Source: Thermodesulfobacteriota bacterium (GTDB lineage: Bacteria; Desulfobacterota; BSN033; UBA1163). From it: 64,000 nucleotides of DNA. Position 1 is the stretch's first letter; each line of letters starts with the position of its first letter. Positions 39,419 to 50,242 of the stretch are shown piece after piece. The notes under the pieces were generated by a model. It was not told where the DNA came from and ran no database searches. It saw only the letters and a program-made list of their open reading frames with translations. The position numbers and the translations under genes were made by a program. The stretch is taken from contig JAOAHX010000005.1 in assembly GCA_026415035.1 (NCBI GenBank), positions 62,001 to 126,000 of the forward strand. Reading direction: 5' to 3'.

Positions 39419-40819
39419 ATGGCATCGAGCCCGAGGATTTTGGTGGTCGATGACGAGGCGATCGTCTGCGAAAGCTGTCAGAGGATCCTCGAAGACGAGG
39501 GGTTGGAAGTGGAGACGGCCCTGAGCGGGGCCGAGGCCTTCGCCAAGATGAGGGAGAATCCCTACGATATCGTCATCACCGACCTGAAGATGCCGGGCAT
39601 CGACGGAATGGAGGTCCTCCGGACGATCAAAAGGGAGTATCCGGATACGATCGTGATCATGATCACCGGCTTTTCGACCGTGGAGACCGCGGTGGAAGCC
39701 ATGAAATTGGGTGCCTTCGACTACATCCCCAAACCCTTTACCCCCGACGAGGTCTCCGTCGTGGTCAAAAAGGCGATCGAGCAGAAGAAGCTCCTGCTCG
39801 AGAATGTTTATCTCCGACAGGAACTCCAGGAAAAATACGGGTTTCATAATATCATCGGGAAAAGCAAAAAGATGCAGGAGATTTACCGGATCATCGCCAA
39901 GGTGGCTCCCACCGACAGCACGGTCCTCATCCACGGTCAGAGCGGGACGGGCAAAGAACTGATCGCCAGGGCAATCCACTATAACAGCCCCCGACGAGAC
40001 AAACAGTTCGTGACCGTCGATTGTGCCGTCCTGGCCGAGAATCTCCTCGAGAGCGAGCTGTTCGGCCATATCCGGGGCTCGTTTACCGGCGCGGTGACGA
40101 CCAAACCCGGCCTTTTCGAGGTGGCCGATGGAGGAACGCTCTTCCTCGATGAGATCGGCAACATCAGTTTGGCCATCCAAGCAAAACTCCTGAGGGTGCT
40201 CCAGGAGAGGGAGTTCACGCCCGTCGGGGGCACCAAATCCAAAAAGGTCGACATTCGCCTCATCGCGGCCACCAATAAAGACCTGGAAAAGATGATCCAG
40301 GAGGGGACCTTTCGGGAAGACCTCTATTATCGACTGAACATCGTCCCGATCTTTCTTCCCCCCTTGAAGGAGCGGCAGGAGGATATTCCCGCCTTGGCCA
40401 TGCATTTTCTCAAAAAGTACTCTGAGGAGATGGGAAAGTCGATCAAGGGGTTTACTCCGGAAGCGATGGAGAGGCTCATGAAATACCCATGGCCTGGCAA
40501 TGTCCGGGAGCTCGAAAACGTGATCGAACGCACGGTGGTGATGATGGACGAAGAGATGGTTCGAGTAGAGCATCTGATCCTGCCGGGCCAGAAAAGGGCA
40601 GAGGAGATCGAGCGCATCCCGATGACGAGCGAAGAGTTGAAGGAGATCAAGAAGCAACTGAGGGAGAAAGCGGTGGAGGAGGTCGAAAGGGCCTTTGTGA
40701 TCAAGGCCCTCGAGAGGAACCAATGGAATGTGACCAGGGCCGCAGAGGAGGTGGGGATGTTACGGCCCAATTTCCAGGCGCTGATGAGAAAATATGGTTT
40801 AAGAGTCCGGGAAGACTAA
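39419..40819 (+). CDS. NtrC-family sigma-54 activator (response regulator)
   Basis: 466 residues in the classic order: receiver domain (1-120; DDE at 11-13, phospho-Asp55, Lys105), AAA+ domain (145-380; Walker A GQSGTGKE 173-180, sigma-54 contact loop GSFTGA 220-225, Walker [12 protein letters not shown]), and a Fis-type helix-turn-helix near 430-458 ([25 protein letters not shown]). The GAFTGA loop has Ser for the first Ala, a change seen in some active members. No kinase gene is adjacent. The nearest sigma-54-type promoter is B, 490 bases after its stop. ATG follows AAAAGGAGG. Confidence 0.94.
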
Positions 40820-40882: not shown

Positions 40883-41089
40883 GTGTCTGATTTCTTTAAA
40901 TGGCTGATTATGGGTTGGTCATTTGTGGTGGTCGGGATAGCGGCCTTAGGCCTTGTCCTCATTGTTAAGTATGGGGAGATCAAAAAAATTGAGACCGATG
41001 ATGTAACTCTCTGTTTTATTATTACTTTTTTCTGTTGGCTCATCCCCATCATCGCCTTTTCCATCCTCGCCAGGACGCTCGGCTTTTAA
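40883..41089 (+). CDS. Small two-span membrane protein
   Basis: 68 residues from GTG 40883: first span about 8-28 (LIMGWSFVVVGIAALGLVLIV), a short charged loop KYGEIKKIETDD, second span about 42-64. No family recognised. Base composition is more AT-rich than its neighbours. The ribosome site is weak (GGAAGAG). It sits between the sigma-54 activator and the AT-rich control region; its coding status rests on the continuous membrane pattern. Confidence 0.5.
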   Translation: MSDFFKWLIMGWSFVVVGIAALGLVLIVKYGEIKKIETDDVTLCFIITFFCWLIPIIAFSILARTLGF

Positions 41090-41203: not shown

Positions 41204-41224
41204 ATGTATAATAATTTTATACAT
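41204..41224. promoter_or_regulatory. Enhancer palindrome upstream of sigma-54 site B
   Basis: ATGTATAA-N5-TTATACAT, perfect 8-base arms. Its right half ATTTTATAC starts 97 bases before the -24 GG, the same distance as the matching ATTTTATAC in region A. The position, about 110-130 bases before the expected transcript start, is usual for NtrC-type activator sites. It lies in an AT-rich 336-base non-coding stretch (41090-41425). Confidence 0.6.
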
Positions 41225-41309: not shown

Positions 41310-41325
41310 TGGCATTTGAAATGCA
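41310..41325 (+). promoter_or_regulatory. Sigma-54 (-24/-12) promoter B
   Basis: TGGCATT-TGAA-ATGCA with GG (41311-41312), ten bases, GC (41323-41324). Three changes from TGGCACG-N4-TTGCA. Expected start near 41336, giving a leader of about 90 bases that includes a small GGAGG/CCTCC hairpin (41345-41365). Confidence 0.65.
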
Positions 41326-41425
41326 AAAAAATTTTAAAAAACGAGGAGGCCTTTAAGATACCTCCGGCCAACTCGGGATCGAGACGAATAGGCCTTCAAA
41401 TTGGTAGGAAAGGAAGGGTGGCAAG

Positions 41426-41671
41426 GTGAAAAGAGTTTTTGGATTACTCTCCCTCATGCTCGTGTTCGGCCTCTCCCTCTTTACGCTTGGAATTGCCCAT
41501 ATAGGGGGAATCAAAGGTGTGGGGCTGATCGGGATGTGGTTCTTTTATACTTTTGGCACGATCATCGTCTTAGCCCAGTTGATTCCGGCGGGCATTGTTC
41601 TGTTCGGGTTCATCGCAACCGGCATCTCTTCATATAGGAATAGAGAAGAAAGGCCAGTACCGGTGGTTTAA
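41426..41671 (+). CDS. Small two-span membrane protein under sigma-54 promoter
   Basis: 81 residues from GTG 41426. Span 1 about 5-27 (FGLLSLMLVFGLSLFTLGIAH), span 2 about 40-68 (FYTFGTIIVLAQLIPAGIVLFGFIATGI), then a charged tail SSYRNREERPVPVV. No family recognised and no clear similarity to the 36- and 50-residue proteins behind promoter A beyond being small and membrane-bound. The ribosome site is AGGAAGG. It is the first gene after promoter B and 105 bases before the receiver protein. Confidence 0.65.
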   Translation: MKRVFGLLSLMLVFGLSLFTLGIAHIGGIKGVGLIGMWFFYTFGTIIVLAQLIPAGIVLFGFIATGISSYRNREERPVPVV

Positions 41672-41776
41672 GCTCCCCCGAAGCTCCTTCCTCCTCTGGA
41701 ACCAAGGATGGTGGGGGTTGGTCCGGGTCAAATTGGAATGGGCTTTTGAGGGGAGGATCCGATCCAGGGATGAGCG

Positions 41777-42205
41777 ATGAAGTCAAACATGATCCTCATT
41801 GCCTATCAGGATGATTTAGGCCTCCGTTCGCTGACCACCTTTTTCCACGGCCTTGGTTATAGGATTGAAACGGCAAGGACCATCAGCGAGATGATCCCAA
41901 AAGTCAGAAAAGGGAAGAGCGATGTCCTGCTCTTGGACGACGAGTTGGAAGGGGTGAAGGCCTTCGATCTGGTTCCCCTCTTGAAACATATTCGGCCGAG
42001 ACTCCAGGTGATCGTCGTCTCTTCCGAGACCTCCCTGGAGAAGGTGAAGCGACTCAGGGAGGCGGGGATCTTCTACCACGCAACGAAGCCGATCGATCTC
42101 GAAGAGGTGAGGTCCGCGGTGGGTTGCGCCTTTGAGAAAATCGAAAGGGAAGGCCTGAAAGCAAGAGGTATTCCTTTTTGGGTCCCAGGGAGGGTTCCAG
42201 CATGA
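41777..42205 (+). CDS. Stand-alone receiver-domain protein
   Basis: 142 residues, a single CheY-like domain without output domain. Acidic pocket Asp12-Asp13, likely phospho-Asp54 in VLLLDDELEG, Ser/Thr in VVSSET (81-85) and Lys104 in HATKPID are all in place; a short basic tail follows. It ends in ATGA overlap with the cytochrome c gene, so both are translated together. This suggests that the receiver works with or controls the redox complex, perhaps by contact. Which kinase feeds it is unknown. Confidence 0.85.
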   Translation: MKSNMILIAYQDDLGLRSLTTFFHGLGYRIETARTISEMIPKVRKGKSDVLLLDDELEGVKAFDLVPLLKHIRPRLQVIVVSSETSLEKVKRLREAGIFYHATKPIDLEEVRSAVGCAFEKIEREGLKARGIPFWVPGRVPA

Positions 42206-43251
42206 GGTGGAGATCATTTAAATCTGGAGGGGTCCTGGTGGGGTTTCTCCTTTTTGCCCTTTTCGGGGTGGGCATGGGAATGGCTTGGGGAGAGAACGCC
42301 AAGTGTTTAACGTGTCATCGGGATGAGCGATTGGTCAAAACCGATGCGCGAGGCAACAAGATCGCCCTCCATCTCAACGAGGAGGAGTTCAAACGGAGTG
42401 TCCATGGAAAGCTCGCCTGCACCGACTGCCACACCCGAATCGTGGACGGGACGCATGCCAAAAAAGGGGTCAAAGAGGCGGATCGAAAGGTGGACTGTGG
42501 GGCCTGCCATGAGGCCTCGGAGGCTTTATTCAAGACGAGCGTCCACAGCACGAAGGCCAGCATCGCCTGCAAAGAATGTCACGGATACCATTATATGAGG
42601 CCTTTGACAGATCCGAAATCGACCACCTACCGGACCAATCTCGTTCAAACCTGTGGCGCCTGCCATGCTGAGGAGAGCAAGCAATTCGCCGAAAGCGTCC
42701 ACGGGGTTGGCCTCTCGAGGGGGAGGCCCAACCATCCCACCTGCACCACTTGCCACGGCACCCACGGGATTAAGCCCAGGACCGATCCCGATTCCGCCGT
42801 CCATGAGAGAAAGATCGCCATCACCACCTGTCCCCAATGTCATGCCGCTGAACAGATCACGAGGGAGTATCGGTTCACCACGAAGCCGGTCAAATCCTAC
42901 TACGACAGCTTCCATGGCCTTTCTTATCGCGGGGGCGACACGTTCTCGGCCAACTGTGCCAGCTGCCATGGGGTCCACGATATCCGTCCGTCGAGCGACC
43001 CCAAATCCATGGTCCACAAGGATAACCTCCAGAAGACCTGCGGAAGTTGCCATCCCGGGGCTTCTGTCAATTTTGCAAAAGGCAAGATCCATACCCTTCC
43101 TGACATCAAGGAAGGCGATTTCGGCGAAAAGGTCCTCGGGTGGGTGAGGGTCGTCTATATTGTCTTGATCGTGACCGTCCTCGGAGGGATGCTCTTCTTC
43201 AATTTCACCGACTGGTTGAGAAAGACGATTGACCGAAGACCGAGAGATTAA
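42202..43251 (+). CDS. Nine-haem cytochrome c, membrane-anchored
   Basis: 349 residues. An N-terminal signal/anchor (about 9-31, VLVGFLLFALFGVGMGMAWG) leads to nine CxxCH haem sites: CLTCH (from residue 35), CTDCH, CGACH, CKECH, CGACH, CTTCH, CPQCH, CASCH and CGSCH. A C-terminal span (about 316-337) ends in a basic tail, so the haem part lies in the periplasm and is held to the membrane. Many extra His residues can be second haem ligands. The cytochrome b gene follows by 12 bases; together they would move electrons between the quinone pool and the periplasm. Confidence 0.93.
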   Translation: MRWRSFKSGGVLVGFLLFALFGVGMGMAWGENAKCLTCHRDERLVKTDARGNKIALHLNEEEFKRSVHGKLACTDCHTRIVDGTHAKKGVKEADRKVDCGACHEASEALFKTSVHSTKASIACKECHGYHYMRPLTDPKSTTYRTNLVQTCGACHAEESKQFAESVHGVGLSRGRPNHPTCTTCHGTHGIKPRTDPDSAVHERKIAITTCPQCHAAEQITREYRFTTKPVKSYYDSFHGLSYRGGDTFSANCASCHGVHDIRPSSDPKSMVHKDNLQKTCGSCHPGASVNFAKGKIHTLPDIKEGDFGEKVLGWVRVVYIVLIVTVLGGMLFFNFTDWLRKTIDRRPRD

Positions 43252-43263
43252 GGAGTTTGGGCC

Positions 43264-44091
43264 ATGGGAAGAAGATACCTACGCATGACCTTAAATGAAA
43301 GGATTCAGCACCTCAATTTGGCCATCAATTTTACGATCTTGGTCATCACCGGCTTCGCCCTGAGATTCCCGGAGGCCTTCTGGGCATCACCCATCACGGA
43401 TGTCCCTATGGGAATGACCTTTCGGGGTTTCCTCCATCGCCTCTCCGGGGCCGCGATCGTCACCCTTGGAGGGTACCACCTCCTCTATTTGGCCTTCACC
43501 GAGAGGGGGAGGAGAATCGCCCTCGATATGATCCCCACTTTCAAGGACCTCCAGGACCTCTGGGAGACCCTGAAGAATAATCTCTTCATCAACCGCCCCC
43601 CAAAAGAGATCAAGATGGGCCGGTTCAACTTCAGAGAGAAGTTAGAGTATTTCGGGTTGATCTGGGGGACGATCGTCATGACCGTGACCGGGTTCATCCT
43701 CTGGTTCAAGGAGGAGTGGCTCCGGTTCTTCCCCCTTTGGACCTTTGAGGTGGCCCGGGCCATCCACTTCTACGAGGCCATCTTGGCCACCTTCACCATC
43801 CTCATCTGGCATTTCTATTCGGTCATCTTAAACCCCGATGTCTATCCGATGAACTGGGCCTGGATCAACGGCTACCTGACTGAACACGAGATGGAACTGG
43901 AGCATGGTCTGGAACTGGAGCGGATCAAGGCCGAGGAGAGACGGAGATGGCTCTCCCTTGATGAAGGAGGAAAGGGGGGAGCAAACGTCTACCCCCTCCA
44001 CCAGGAAAAGAGACAGAAATTTTCGATCAAGACCCTTTACGGCGTCGTCCAACACCTCAATGAGTCGATCAAGAACTGGAAAGGGATGTGA
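43264..44091 (+). CDS. Membrane cytochrome b (b561/formate dehydrogenase gamma-like)
   Basis: 275 residues, four main spans (about 17-33, 53-78, 125-145, 160-188). Likely haem His: LNERIQHLNLAI, FLHRLSGAAIVTLGGYHLL, AIHFYEAILATFTILIWHFYS. These are placed as in the di-haem b subunits that exchange electrons with quinone. The C-terminal 85 residues are polar and cytoplasmic. It is the membrane partner of the nine-haem cytochrome encoded just upstream. Direction (quinol oxidation or quinone reduction) cannot be told. Confidence 0.88.
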   Translation: MGRRYLRMTLNERIQHLNLAINFTILVITGFALRFPEAFWASPITDVPMGMTFRGFLHRLSGAAIVTLGGYHLLYLAFTERGRRIALDMIPTFKDLQDLWETLKNNLFINRPPKEIKMGRFNFREKLEYFGLIWGTIVMTVTGFILWFKEEWLRFFPLWTFEVARAIHFYEAILATFTILIWHFYSVILNPDVYPMNWAWINGYLTEHEMELEHGLELERIKAEERRRWLSLDEGGKGGANVYPLHQEKRQKFSIKTLYGVVQHLNESIKNWKGM

Positions 44092-44139
44092 GCCTCGCCC
44101 TACATGGGCATGAGAACAGGACGGAGGAGGTGACCTTCA

Positions 44140-44313
44140 GTGAAATTGAAAGATGGCCTTAAAGGACGTTATGGGCCCTATCCGAAGCGAAAGGGGAGAA
44201 GAAGACAGCCTTCCCAAGAGAGTGGCTACCTCAGGAGATGTTACGATTGGCTAAAATGGAGGGCTGAGAAGGTCGGAGGGATCATCCTCCATCGCCCTTG
44301 CCTCCAACCTTGA
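44140..44313 (+). CDS. Small basic protein, 57 residues, uncertain
   Basis: An open frame starting GTG AAA TTG eight bases after GGAGGAGG. The product is very basic (KLKDGLKGRYGPYPKRKGRRR at the start, then RRCYDWLKWRAEK). No family recognised and no membrane span. It would be the last gene of the redox unit, before the terminator at 44407. It may be a chance frame; the good ribosome site is the main support. Confidence 0.4.
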   Translation: MKLKDGLKGRYGPYPKRKGRRRQPSQESGYLRRCYDWLKWRAEKVGGIILHRPCLQP

Positions 44314-44406: not shown

Positions 44407-44474
44407 CCCTATATATCCTCTCACTCCCACCATCCACACCCCACCCAAACGGAGAGGATATATAGGGTTTTTTT
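44407..44474 (+). terminator. Strong terminator of the redox operon
   Basis: CCCTATATATCCTCTC (44407-44422) and its exact complement GAGAGGATATATAGGG (44452-44467) form a perfect 16-bp stem with a 29-base loop, then seven T residues. It separates the cytochrome unit from the M48 protease gene. The remainder of the spacer (44314-44406) shows nothing I can name. Confidence 0.85.
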
Positions 44475-46528: not shown

Positions 46529-46634
46529 GAAGTCGGCCCACTTTTAAGGCCATAGGGGACCCTGACCTTTGGCCCCTCGGAAAAGGAGGAAAGCCCCCCA
46601 TCCCGGAATTTCGAAGAGGGCAGATAGAACCTCT

Positions 46635-49334
46635 ATGAAGAGCGAGAAGAAGGAGAGAACCGAGGAGGCCCTCAGGCTCAACCGCGATCTGTCGATTCTG
46701 AACACCATCGGCCAGGATGTGAACGAATCGGTCGATCTTGACGAGATCCTCAACCGGAGCCTCGACAAGGTGGTGGAGTTGACTGACATTCAGTCGGCGG
46801 GGATCTACCTCCTCGAAGAGAATACCGGTGAGCTGGTCTTCGCGGCCCACCGAGGATTTTCCAAGGCCTTTGCCAAAGGGGTCAAACGGATCAAATTGGG
46901 GGAGGGAGCCACGGGAAAGGTGGCCCTCACCGGAGAGCCCCTCTTCATCGAAGACTACCCCTCCTATCCCGAGGCCCTTTCCTTCGCCCTCGAGGAGGGT
47001 TTGAGGTCGCTCGCCCTGATCCCTTTGAAGTCGAGGAGTAAGATCTACGGGACCCTTAACCTCGCCATGAAGGTCCCTTATGCCTTCACCCCCTCGTCGC
47101 GGAATCTCTTCCTCTCGATCGGGCAGACCATCAGCGGCGCCATGGAACGGGCCTTCCTCTATGCGGAAAATGTCCGACGCCTCGAGGAGCAAAAGACGCT
47201 TTACGCGATCGGGCAGGAGATCGTCTCGAAGCTCGAATTGAAGGTCATCCTCGACAAGATCATCAAGAGCGCGATCGAACTCTTGAAGGCCGATGCCGGG
47301 TCGATCGCCCTCTGGGACAATCGGAAACAGGCCTATGTCTATGTCGTCGCCCATGGGTTGACCGAGATCTTAATCGGGAAGGAGGTCTCCCCCTCCTCGA
47401 GAGGGATCGGGGCCGAGGTCCTGAAGAGGAAGAGGCCCGTTCTCTATGAGAATTACGACCTCCATCCCAACCGTCTGGTGGAGCTCGATCCCTTTCACCT
47501 GAAAGAGGTCTTGGGGGTTCCGTTGATCGTCCGGGAGATGGTCATCGGCGTGATGATCGTCTGCACGAAGGACCCTCGGAAGCATTTTGGGGAAAAGGAC
47601 ATCGAACTGCTCTCCTCCTTCGGCCAGCAGGCCGCGATCGCCATCGGCAACGCCCAGCTCTACGAGGACTCGTTATCGAAGATCCGGCATCTGACCGCCC
47701 TCTATGAGATCAGCCGAAAGCTCTCCTCCACCCTCGATCTCGACGAGTTGCTCCAGCGGGCCCTGGAATTGATTCGAGAGAAGTGGGGATATGCCCTCTG
47801 CGGCATCTTCCTGCTCGATCGGGAGAAGAGGGAGCTCTATATTCGAAAGGTGATCGGCCGTGACTTTGAAGAGGTCAAGGAGATGCGATTTCGGGTGGGC
47901 CTGGATGGCATTGTCGGATGGGTGGCCCAGACCGGGGAACCCCTCTACGTTCCCGACGTCTCCAAGGACACGAGGTATATCCCCGGGTCTCCCGAAGGGA
48001 GATCGGAGGCCGCCTTCCCCCTCAAGGTCAGGGATCAGGTGATCGGCGTGCTCGACCTCGAAAGCAGGGAGCTCAACGGATTCGAAGAGGAGGACCTGAA
48101 GACCCTCTCCTCCTTCGCCAGCCAGGTGAGCATCTTCATCGAGAACGCGCAGCTCTTCTCCGATCTACGACAGACCCTGAGCGAGTTGAGGCAGGCCCAG
48201 GATCAGATCATCCAGGCGGAGAAGCTGAGGGCGATGGGCGAGATGGCCAGCGGCGTGGCCCATGATTTCAATAACGTCCTGGCCGCCATCCTCGGGAACA
48301 TCCAGCTCTTGCTCCACTCTCTGGAGACCTATGACCCCGAGGAGATCCGAGAACGTCTGAGGACGATCGAGAAGGCGGCCAAGGACGGGGCTGAGACGGT
48401 CCGCCGAATCCAGGAGTTCACGGGGAAGCGGCGAGACCGGGAGTTCATCCCCCTCTCCCTCAACGATCTCATCCAAGAGGTGGCCGCCATCACGGAGCCC
48501 CGTTGGAAGGACCAACCCCAGAAGAAGGGGATCTTCATCGAACTGGAAAAGGAGTTGGGCGATATCCCTCCGGTTCTGGGCAACCCATCGGAGTTGAGGG
48601 AAGTGTTGACCAACATCGTCTTCAATGCGGTCGATGCGATGCCGAAGGGAGGCCGGATCACCATTGCGACCCATCCCCATTCTGAGGATTGGGTCGAGGT
48701 CCGGATCTCGGATACAGGAATCGGCATGAGCGAGGAGGTGAAGAAGAGGATCTTCGACCCCTTCTTCACCACCAAAGGGGTGACGAGCTCGGGATTAGGA
48801 TTGAGCGTCTCCTACGGGATCATCAAACGCCACGGGGGCGAGATCCTGGTCGAGAGCGAACCCGGAAAGGGGACGACCTTCCTCCTCCACCTGCCCGTGG
48901 GATATGGAGAGGAGGTGAAGGAGGTTGACCAGGGGGCCAAGAGACCTGCGGGGGCGCTTCGCTCGGCCCGGATCTTGGTGATCGATGATGAGGAGGCGGT
49001 TCGGGATGTCCTCTCGAGAATGCTTCAGGCCAAAGGCCACCGGGTCGAGGTGGCCTCGGGAGGAGAGGAGGGGATCGAACGGTTCAAGAAGCAGCCCTTC
49101 GACTTGGTCTTCACCGATCTCGGAATGCCCAAGATCTCCGGTTGGGAGGTGGGCAAACGGTTGAAAGAGCTCAACCCGAAGATCCCCGTGATCATGATCA
49201 CGGGCTGGGGGATGGAGCTCGACCGAAAGAAGATGACCGAGAGCGGCATCGACCTCATCATCTCCAAACCCTTCAGCTTCGACCAGGTCACCCAGCTCAT
49301 CCACGAGGCTTTGGACCTGAAGGAGAGGATGTGA
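46635..49334 (+). CDS. Hybrid histidine kinase: three GAF domains, kinase, receiver
   Basis: 899 residues, soluble. GAF domains at about 25-180, 195-350 and 365-520, each with a DLDEIL-like entry helix; a coiled linker; HisKA with VAHDFNNVLAAILG (His near 540); HATPase_c with VLTNIVFNAVDAMPKGG, DTGIGMS and GLGLSV; then a C-terminal receiver (about 775-895) with VIDDEE, phospho-Asp in VFTDLGMP and Lys in ISKPF. The HDFNN form of the H-box is typical of NtrB-like kinases. It could pass phosphate to an unlinked regulator such as the activator at 39419, but nothing proves it. ATG 46635 preferred over TTG 46569. Confidence 0.88.
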   Translation: MKSEKKERTEEALRLNRDLSILNTIGQDVNESVDLDEILNRSLDKVVELTDIQSAGIYLLEENTGELVFAAHRGFSKAFAKGVKRIKLGEGATGKVALTGEPLFIEDYPSYPEALSFALEEGLRSLALIPLKSRSKIYGTLNLAMKVPYAFTPSSRNLFLSIGQTISGAMERAFLYAENVRRLEEQKTLYAIGQEIVSKLELKVILDKIIKSAIELLKADAGSIALWDNRKQAYVYVVAHGLTEILIGKEVSPSSRGIGAEVLKRKRPVLYENYDLHPNRLVELDPFHLKEVLGVPLIVREMVIGVMIVCTKDPRKHFGEKDIELLSSFGQQAAIAIGNAQLYEDSLSKIRHLTALYEISRKLSSTLDLDELLQRALELIREKWGYALCGIFLLDREKRELYIRKVIGRDFEEVKEMRFRVGLDGIVGWVAQTGEPLYVPDVSKDTRYIPGSPEGRSEAAFPLKVRDQVIGVLDLESRELNGFEEEDLKTLSSFASQVSIFIENAQLFSDLRQTLSELRQAQDQIIQAEKLRAMGEMASGVAHDFNNVLAAILGNIQLLLHSLETYDPEEIRERLRTIEKAAKDGAETVRRIQEFTGKRRDREFIPLSLNDLIQEVAAITEPRWKDQPQKKGIFIELEKELGDIPPVLGNPSELREVLTNIVFNAVDAMPKGGRITIATHPHSEDWVEVRISDTGIGMSEEVKKRIFDPFFTTKGVTSSGLGLSVSYGIIKRHGGEILVESEPGKGTTFLLHLPVGYGEEVKEVDQGAKRPAGALRSARILVIDDEEAVRDVLSRMLQAKGHRVEVASGGEEGIERFKKQPFDLVFTDLGMPKISGWEVGKRLKELNPKIPVIMITGWGMELDRKKMTESGIDLIISKPFSFDQVTQLIHEALDLKERM

Positions 49335-49336
49335 GC

Positions 49337-50242
49337 TCACCCCCATCGCCACAGGGCGACGATGAAGGTGATGAGGAAGACGAAGAGCAGGTTCATATAG
49401 GCCATGAAATAGAAGGCCTTCTCCGGGGCCGACCTTTCAGGTTTGGCCTTCCCTGGCAGCACCTCTCCCACCAAGGGCATGGCCAGGACCTTCTCCTCCC
49501 CGTGGGGAGCCGATTTGAGCGCTTCGGTCAGATCGTTTCCCGCCTGGTGCTTCCGAACATGGTTGCCCTCGACCCAGAGCTTGCTCAGACTCACGTCATA
49601 AATCTTTCCTCGGTAGGCGATGTAAGCCGGCCTCTTTTCGGCCCCATCGAAATGAGATAGCTCCTCCAAGGTGTAGGTCGACTTTTTTTCGACTCTCCGA
49701 TCGGCGGTCCGCCTTCTCAGCTTCGGGCCGATCCAAAAGGTGACCAGGCCGGCCGACAGGACCATCAGGGCGAAGAGAACGATTTTGAGGCTCAGGAGGA
49801 GGCCGAACCTGGTCGTGTAAAAGGCCTCCCAGGTCGGTATCCTTGCGATGGTGAGGGGGATGCCGGTGGCGGTCAGCAGGATCATCCCCAGCCATCCGAG
49901 GACCAGTTCCCCTTTTGGCAGCCCCTTGGCCGCATAAGCGGGCTTCAAGAGGAGGTGGACATAGAGGATCGTTCCGAACCAGGCGATGGCGGTCAAAAGA
50001 TGGAGATAACCGAGGGCCAATCGCATCCCCCTTTGAAGCGGTCGAAGGGGCCTGTAAAGGCCCCTGGCTTGGAGGTCTTCCTTAAAAACCTCTCCAGATT
50101 TGGTCAAGGTTCCTCCCGTGGGATCCACATGGCACCGCAGACAGTCCCACCCGGTCTGCTCGGCATACTCCGGGGTGGCGAAGGCCTGAAAAGGCAAGAG
50201 AAGGGCGAGCAACGCAAGGGTGAGGAAACGGCAGAGGTTCAT
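49337..50242 (-). CDS. c-haem / membrane / b5-like fusion protein
   Basis: 301 residues combining three parts. A signal peptide (1-22) leads to one CxxCH site (Cys34, Cys37, His38). Four spans follow (about 74-98, 114-132, 148-170, 276-299), with a CopD-like look (YLHLLTAIAWFGTILYVHLL). Between spans 3 and 4 lies a domain at about 188-262 resembling a cytochrome b5 fold (TYTLEELSHFDGAEKRPAYI, then GKIYDVS, with His228 and His247 as possible ligands). All parts would bind haem, so a membrane electron carrier is likely. A TATAAT box ends eight bases before the ATG. Confidence 0.75.
   Translation of the reverse strand: MNLCRFLTLALLALLLPFQAFATPEYAEQTGWDCLRCHVDPTGGTLTKSGEVFKEDLQARGLYRPLRPLQRGMRLALGYLHLLTAIAWFGTILYVHLLLKPAYAAKGLPKGELVLGWLGMILLTATGIPLTIARIPTWEAFYTTRFGLLLSLKIVLFALMVLSAGLVTFWIGPKLRRRTADRRVEKKSTYTLEELSHFDGAEKRPAYIAYRGKIYDVSLSKLWVEGNHVRKHQAGNDLTEALKSAPHGEEKVLAMPLVGEVLPGKAKPERSAPEKAFYFMAYMNLLFVFLITFIVALWRWG

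Follow-up and report, generated by a model that had tools for sequence, protein, structure and literature searches.

A pseudo-receiver and a small membrane protein encoded with a two-gene, CbcL-like cytochrome pair in a Thermodesulfobacteriota bacterium

The described systems closest to the locus analysed here are respiratory complexes of Geobacter and receiver domains with an incomplete active site. CbcL of Geobacter carries nine haems, six membrane spans and a b-type domain like that of HydC/FdnI (PMC6295460). In the Cbc5 or CbcBA locus of G. sulfurreducens, GSU0594 is CbcA and GSU0593 is CbcB (PMC7726332), and CbcBA is reported to function at about -0.2 V, a potential that offers the cell very little energy (PMC12307469). 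From the same locus, GSU0596, annotated as a "response receiver", and GSU0597, annotated as "hypothetical", were counter-regulated together in a gsu1771 mutant (PMC10599522). Among signalling proteins, PMC12632262 discusses pseudo-receivers within a two-component system for CmrT and calls the on/off switching of bacterial pseudo-receivers a mystery.

We analysed a stretch of 64,000 nucleotides from a Thermodesulfobacteriota bacterium, referred to in its entirety as the window, in which a stand-alone receiver (REC) is encoded between a small membrane protein (SMP) and two cytochromes, CYC and CYB (Table 1). A first-pass annotation had listed five genes followed by a 16-bp stem, and all of them are present when the sequence is read and translated; the stem is 100% complementary, encloses a 29-nt loop and is followed by a T run. 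The small basic frame is a real gene, with homologues 3' of CYB in nine further loci of the same type (type 1, below) and 3' of REC in one type-2 locus. The predicted ATGA overlap between the REC stop and the CYC start lies at 42202-42205, and since a 4-nt overlap occurs in all 12 other readable type-1 loci, it is not a product of chance. Chance or mis-called genes can be ruled out for the operon as a whole, as every one of its genes recurs in synteny. The unit extends upstream to include an NtrC-type regulator, a 68-aa membrane protein, a palindrome and a sigma-54-like site. The conserved site upstream and the terminator-like stem downstream agree with a single mRNA. Downstream of the operon lie a large hybrid histidine kinase that ends in a receiver domain (46569-49334) and, on the minus strand, a frame with one CXXCH and several predicted membrane spans (49337-50242), which by eye appears CopD- and cytochrome-b5-like.

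Table 1. Features of the locus and their positions in the window
Feature	Position	Strand	Remark
NtrC-type sigma-54-dependent response regulator	39419..40819	+	REC-AAA+-Fis HTH, 466 aa
68-aa membrane protein	40883..41089	+	positionally conserved in the family's type-1 loci
Palindrome TGTATAATAATTTTATACA, candidate activator-binding site	41205..41223	.	recurs in relatives
Sigma-54 (-24/-12) promoter-like site TGGCATTTGAAATGCA	41310..41325	+	GG-N10-GC pattern
SMP-B (small membrane protein), QLIPA motif, 81 aa, GTG start	41426..41671	+	SMP profile
REC, stand-alone pseudo-receiver, 142 aa	41777..42205	+	PF00072
CYC, nine-haem cytochrome c, 349 aa	42202..43251	+	nine CXXCH
CYB, cytochrome b (b561 / formate dehydrogenase gamma type), 275 aa	43264..44091	+	PF01292
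Basic protein, 57 aa	44140..44313	+	homologues in family loci
Inverted repeat, probable terminator	44407..44467	+	arms 44407-44422 / 44452-44467

Loci from relatives in the same family are of two types. Type 1 has the order HAD, NtrC, 68-aa membrane protein, SMP-A, SMP-B, REC, CYC, CYB, basic protein and M48 peptidase, as far as each contig extends, while type 2 consists of SMP-A, SMP-B and REC alone. SMP-A is present in the type-1 loci of most relatives and absent from the window, where a leader of roughly 100 nt (41326-41425) remains after the sigma-54-like site. The genome also holds a second REC copy on another contig, 63% identical, in an SMP-SMP-REC arrangement with no cytochrome. The linkage of REC to the cytochromes is real and conserved in relatives.

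Both ends of CYC are hydrophobic, the N-terminus resembling a signal sequence and a membrane segment lying at the C-terminus; CYC from the window's genus has nine haems, that from two sister genera eleven. CYB scores 50 bits against Ni_hydr_CYTB (PF01292) and falls below the cut-off of TIGR01583. The nearest relative of CYC in its own genome is a 664-aa CbcL-like protein with nine haems and a C-terminal b561 domain. Measured against this protein, homology extends to both domains: CYC is 32% identical to the nine-haem half over 322 aa, and CYB 27% identical to the C-terminal half over 237 aa. The two parts are encoded by separate genes instead of one polypeptide. CYC and CYB look like the two halves of a CbcL-type menaquinol:cytochrome c oxidoreductase, a reading that follows from the nine haems and six spans described for Geobacter CbcL, and membership in the CbcL family suggests menaquinol as their electron donor. 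In comparison with the Cbc5 proteins, some 150 columns of CYC can be aligned with CbcA (hhalign E 5e-20), but the match of CYB to CbcB is weak (hhalign probability 15%).

The NtrC-type regulator (Sigma54_activat 246 bits, Response_reg 115 bits, HTH_8) is 85-89% identical and syntenic in the family's type-1 loci, and 56-68% identical to the NtrC proteins that adjoin REC loci of other families. The 68-aa membrane protein next to it has 82-93% identity among the family's type-1 loci, which makes it one of the best-conserved proteins encoded there, and has no Pfam or NCBIfam match above cut-off. The sigma-54-like site lies between the regulator gene and the operon and is invariant in the family. 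Sites of the GG-N10-GC pattern precede 103 of 133 cassettes (14/14 family loci of type 1, 12/12 of type 2 and 77/107 others), against about 1.5 expected in shuffled sequence, and a sigma-70 scan of the operon region found no excess over shuffles. By a strict pattern, 9 of 13 relatives have the palindrome 5' of this site; the regions before type-2 loci that were scanned for it are AT-rich. The regulator is the likely local activator of the operon.

The small membrane protein of the window had been described as a two-span protein. Two hydrophobic segments are indeed present, but the first is more likely signal-peptide-like than a second span: the second segment carries the motif Q-x-(hydrophobic)-P in 211 of 230 distinct SMPs, and 192 of these 211 have A-x-A between the segments. 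A cleaved signal, one membrane span and a short, mildly basic cytoplasmic tail fit the sequences best. The SMP-B of the window has A-H-I in place of A-x-A, which makes its own cleavage uncertain.

An SMP neighbour was found for 126 of the 140 distinct RECs. At the level of frames, an SMP lies within 400 nt on the same strand for 140 of 154 REC frames but not for any of the 593 frames used as controls at distances beyond 2.5 kb; this count comes from an earlier SMP profile that held some REC sequence, and the cleaned profile gives the same picture. The final SMP profile was built without REC frames. REC runs in frame into an SMP in 13 frames, two of which are one contig present twice (L069, L184). 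Most of these joins contain an internal ATG at which translation might restart, and L190 and L203 have only TTG codons; the AlphaFold model of one joined protein shows the expected helices only, at a low pLDDT of 69. A larger set of apparent REC-SMP fusions proved to be an artefact, the iterated SMP profile having absorbed REC sequence from fused frames. Judged by gene neighbourhood, the closest partner of REC is the SMP and not the cytochrome. The SMP statistics, together with the cytochrome-free copy in the same genome, rule out that REC is tied only to the cytochrome. The earlier view of a signalling protein tied to an electron-transfer pair holds for the linkage itself; there are also RECs that have SMPs but no cytochrome.

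To place the cassette in a wider context, we searched the phylum; the phylum-wide statements below are based on homology searches and gene order. Relatives of the REC profile (A1) occur in 43 of 395 sampled genomes and 22 of 245 genera, and a scan of named genomes matched Geomonas, Citrifermentans bremense, Geotalea, Geobacter, Malonomonas, Desulfuromusa and many uncultured relatives; these matches identify the phylum as Desulfobacterota. A search of viral contigs found no REC relatives. The coupling of a receiver to a multihaem cytochrome had been called unusual, which is true of the literature searched, where we found no description of the cassette as a system, but not of the phylum.

In most loci outside the window's family, SMP-REC-SMP leads into either CbcA-CbcB(-CbcC)-CbcD-CbcE or genes for a pentahaem cytochrome, an FeS protein and NrfD. 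Including CYC/CYB, RECs thus lie upstream of three kinds of quinol-linked complex that are unrelated to one another. The 137 classified RECs comprise 53 of the NrfD type, 23 with CbcA/CbcB, 13 with CYC/CYB, three NuoE fusions, ten at contig ends and 35 without a recognised complex directly downstream. The last group includes all type-2 loci of the family, so the target of REC need not be a neighbouring complex. A quick REC tree, which has few columns and long branches, requires repeated switches from one main complex type to the other, with supported branches forcing at least 4 to 6 of them, suggesting that cassette and complex have been recombined. One supported set in this tree unites the window's family, with both its cytochrome and its cytochrome-free loci, and the NuoE fusions.

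In the fusions, REC runs in frame into a NuoE-like domain (L068:3546-4529, minus strand; L114:259-1263, plus strand; L115:7281-8291, plus strand), a thioredoxin-fold [2Fe-2S] domain for which PF01257 was run on L068 only; haem-type kinase and NtrC hits lie upstream in L068 and L115. A separate observation concerns CbcD, annotated as a subunit of the complex. In L071, L103, L118 and many other loci it is homologous, over almost its full length, to the periplasmic sensor region of the neighbouring histidine kinases with haem motifs (hhalign E 1e-57), as if a kinase-less sensor had joined the complex.

The window's REC had been taken for a CheY-like protein. It matches Response_reg (PF00072) with 51.2 bits against a cut-off of 30.2, and its AlphaFold model (pLDDT 84, 58 sequences) is a plain receiver of five strand-helix units with a long last helix, the nearest PDB structures being 3crn, Spo0F and NtrC1 (TM-score 0.84/0.92 to 3crn_A). 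The Mg-binding acidic pair is replaced by Tyr-Gln, and the Asp at the phospho site, Ser and Lys are all retained. Across the family the pocket reads Y-Q-D / D / S / K: nearly all members have the non-acidic Tyr-Gln at the two positions of the acidic pair, the Asp57 equivalent is kept in 28 of 29 (Glu in one), and Ser and Lys in 29 of 29. RECs outside the family mostly read D-(E,K,R)-D and have Gly (86/111) or Ser (17/111) at the phospho site, together 103 of 111. Acidic pair, Asp57 and Lys occur together in none of the 140 distinct RECs, while the receivers of NtrC proteins from REC loci, aligned with the RECs, are canonical in 41 of 41 cases. These substitutions speak against the CheY-like reading. 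With a receiver fold and an incomplete pocket, REC is by sequence a pseudo-receiver as defined in PMC12632262, and it is presumably not phosphorylatable; given the retained Asp, Ser and Lys, rare or Mg-independent phosphorylation is conceivable.

We propose, with a probability of roughly 0.42, that SMP and REC form a phosphorylation-independent accessory module of a split CbcL-like menaquinol:cytochrome c oxidoreductase. The local NtrC-type activator would turn the operon on at its sigma-54 promoter, and the operon would supply the oxidoreductase as two polypeptides, CYC and CYB, and alongside it the module, consisting of a membrane-inserted SMP and a cytoplasmic pseudo-receiver. Without the usual Mg/aspartyl-phosphate site, REC may bind other proteins, either constitutively or under conformational control, docking on the short tail that the SMP has in the cytoplasm and, by way of the SMP, on the membrane-embedded quinol-oxidising subunit, presumably CYB. 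Such docking would assemble, stabilise or gate the complex. An accessory module fits best because the membrane partner is constant and the complex changes, no REC has an intact phospho-pocket, and operon and promoter type are shared. The in-frame REC-SMP joins and the NuoE fusions also favour it. Counting against it are the 35 RECs that lack a recognised complex directly downstream, the Asp, Ser and Lys kept in the window's REC, the internal ATG of most REC-SMP joins and the weak match of CYB to CbcB. Post-translational control of electron flow, suggested in the first-pass annotation, is conceivable, but without aspartate phosphorylation as its obvious trigger. That phosphorylation-independent receivers and single-span SMPs directly form an exchangeable accessory or gating module on inner-membrane quinol:cytochrome c oxidoreductases throughout the phylum is an extension we put forward tentatively, at less than even odds.

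The strongest competitors of this proposal are feedback on the local kinase/NtrC pair and a part in assembly. In the first, REC and SMP could provide feedback in the local two-component system, with REC binding the kinase or the receiver of NtrC, either as a competitor that cannot be phosphorylated or to form a heterodimer; operon expression would then be tuned, and the cytochromes would be merely output genes. An NtrC gene and a haem-type kinase hit both lie within 4.5 kb of 61 of the 116 cassettes with enough upstream sequence, the best solved-structure relatives of REC are Spo0F and NtrC-type receivers, and the discussion of CmrT offers a precedent. However, neither regulator lies within 4.5 kb in 31 of the 116, among them the family's type-2 loci, and feedback explains neither the constant company of one or two membrane proteins nor the NuoE fusions. 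We regard it as unlikely. The window's genome encodes a 527-aa histidine kinase with haem motifs (L217:6167-7750, plus strand) that is 36% identical to a Geobacter kinase adjoining a cassette; no NtrC gene was recognised beside it, and it is a candidate partner for the NtrC-type regulator of the window.

It is distinctly unlikely, in our estimate, that REC and SMP are assembly or biogenesis factors of multi-subunit quinol-linked complexes, acting in haem insertion, membrane insertion or stability, and not regulators of electron flow. The association with several unrelated complexes and the small, signal-bearing SMPs would suit such a role, and stand-alone copies might serve complexes encoded elsewhere, but a chaperone with a receiver fold would be unusual. 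Most improbable is a genuine phospho-switch in the window's family, with the Asp at the third position of Y-Q-D replacing the missing acidic pair: the conserved Asp57 equivalent, Ser and Lys favour it, but Tyr-Gln at the acidic pair and the one Glu at the phospho site speak against it, and the Gly or Ser at that site in most RECs outside the family means that a role common to all cannot need phosphorylation.

If the phylum-wide extension of the accessory-module proposal is correct, signalling domains would be working parts of respiratory complexes and not regulators of transcription. The choice among quinol-oxidising complexes in Geobacter-type cells, whose CbcBA genes adjoin the cassette, is a live question, for which the cassette, annotated only as "response receiver" and "hypothetical protein", offers a concrete, deletable candidate. 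As a large natural set of pseudo-receivers with fixed membrane partners, these proteins also make the on/off question raised in PMC12632262 testable.

Compared with known systems, REC shares with published pseudo-receivers and aspartate-less receivers a receiver fold without the full five active-site residues, but it is stand-alone, and its operon also encodes small membrane proteins and respiratory complexes; the portions of PMC12632262 and PMC4395418 that were searched contain no receiver group in such company. Cbc4-like FeS/NrfD complexes (cbcSTU) share, by type of subunit, cytochrome c, FeS and NrfD proteins with the 53 loci that encode these 3' of SMP-REC-SMP, whereas the cassette loci have a pentahaem cytochrome and homologues of CbcD and CbcE. 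The Geobacter Cbc5 or CbcBA locus (GSU0590-GSU0597) probably has, like the window, a REC/SMP cassette beside a cytochrome complex: one genome of a Geobacter sp. (H7geo, L071/L135) has the order HK-NtrC / SMP-REC-SMP-CbcA(7 haem)-CbcB-CbcC(12 haem)-CbcD-CbcE, and GSU0596 and GSU0597 are probably REC and SMP, as judged from gene order and annotation. In contrast to Cbc5, with its heptahaem CbcA, the window's cytochrome carries nine haems and is more like CbcL, its locus has no homologues of CbcC, CbcD or CbcE, and both SMPs precede REC in its family, the window retaining only one. CbcL, MtrH and MtoC combine nine haem motifs with a b-type domain as CYC and CYB do; the enzyme of the window differs from them in being divided between two genes and in its tie to REC and SMP.
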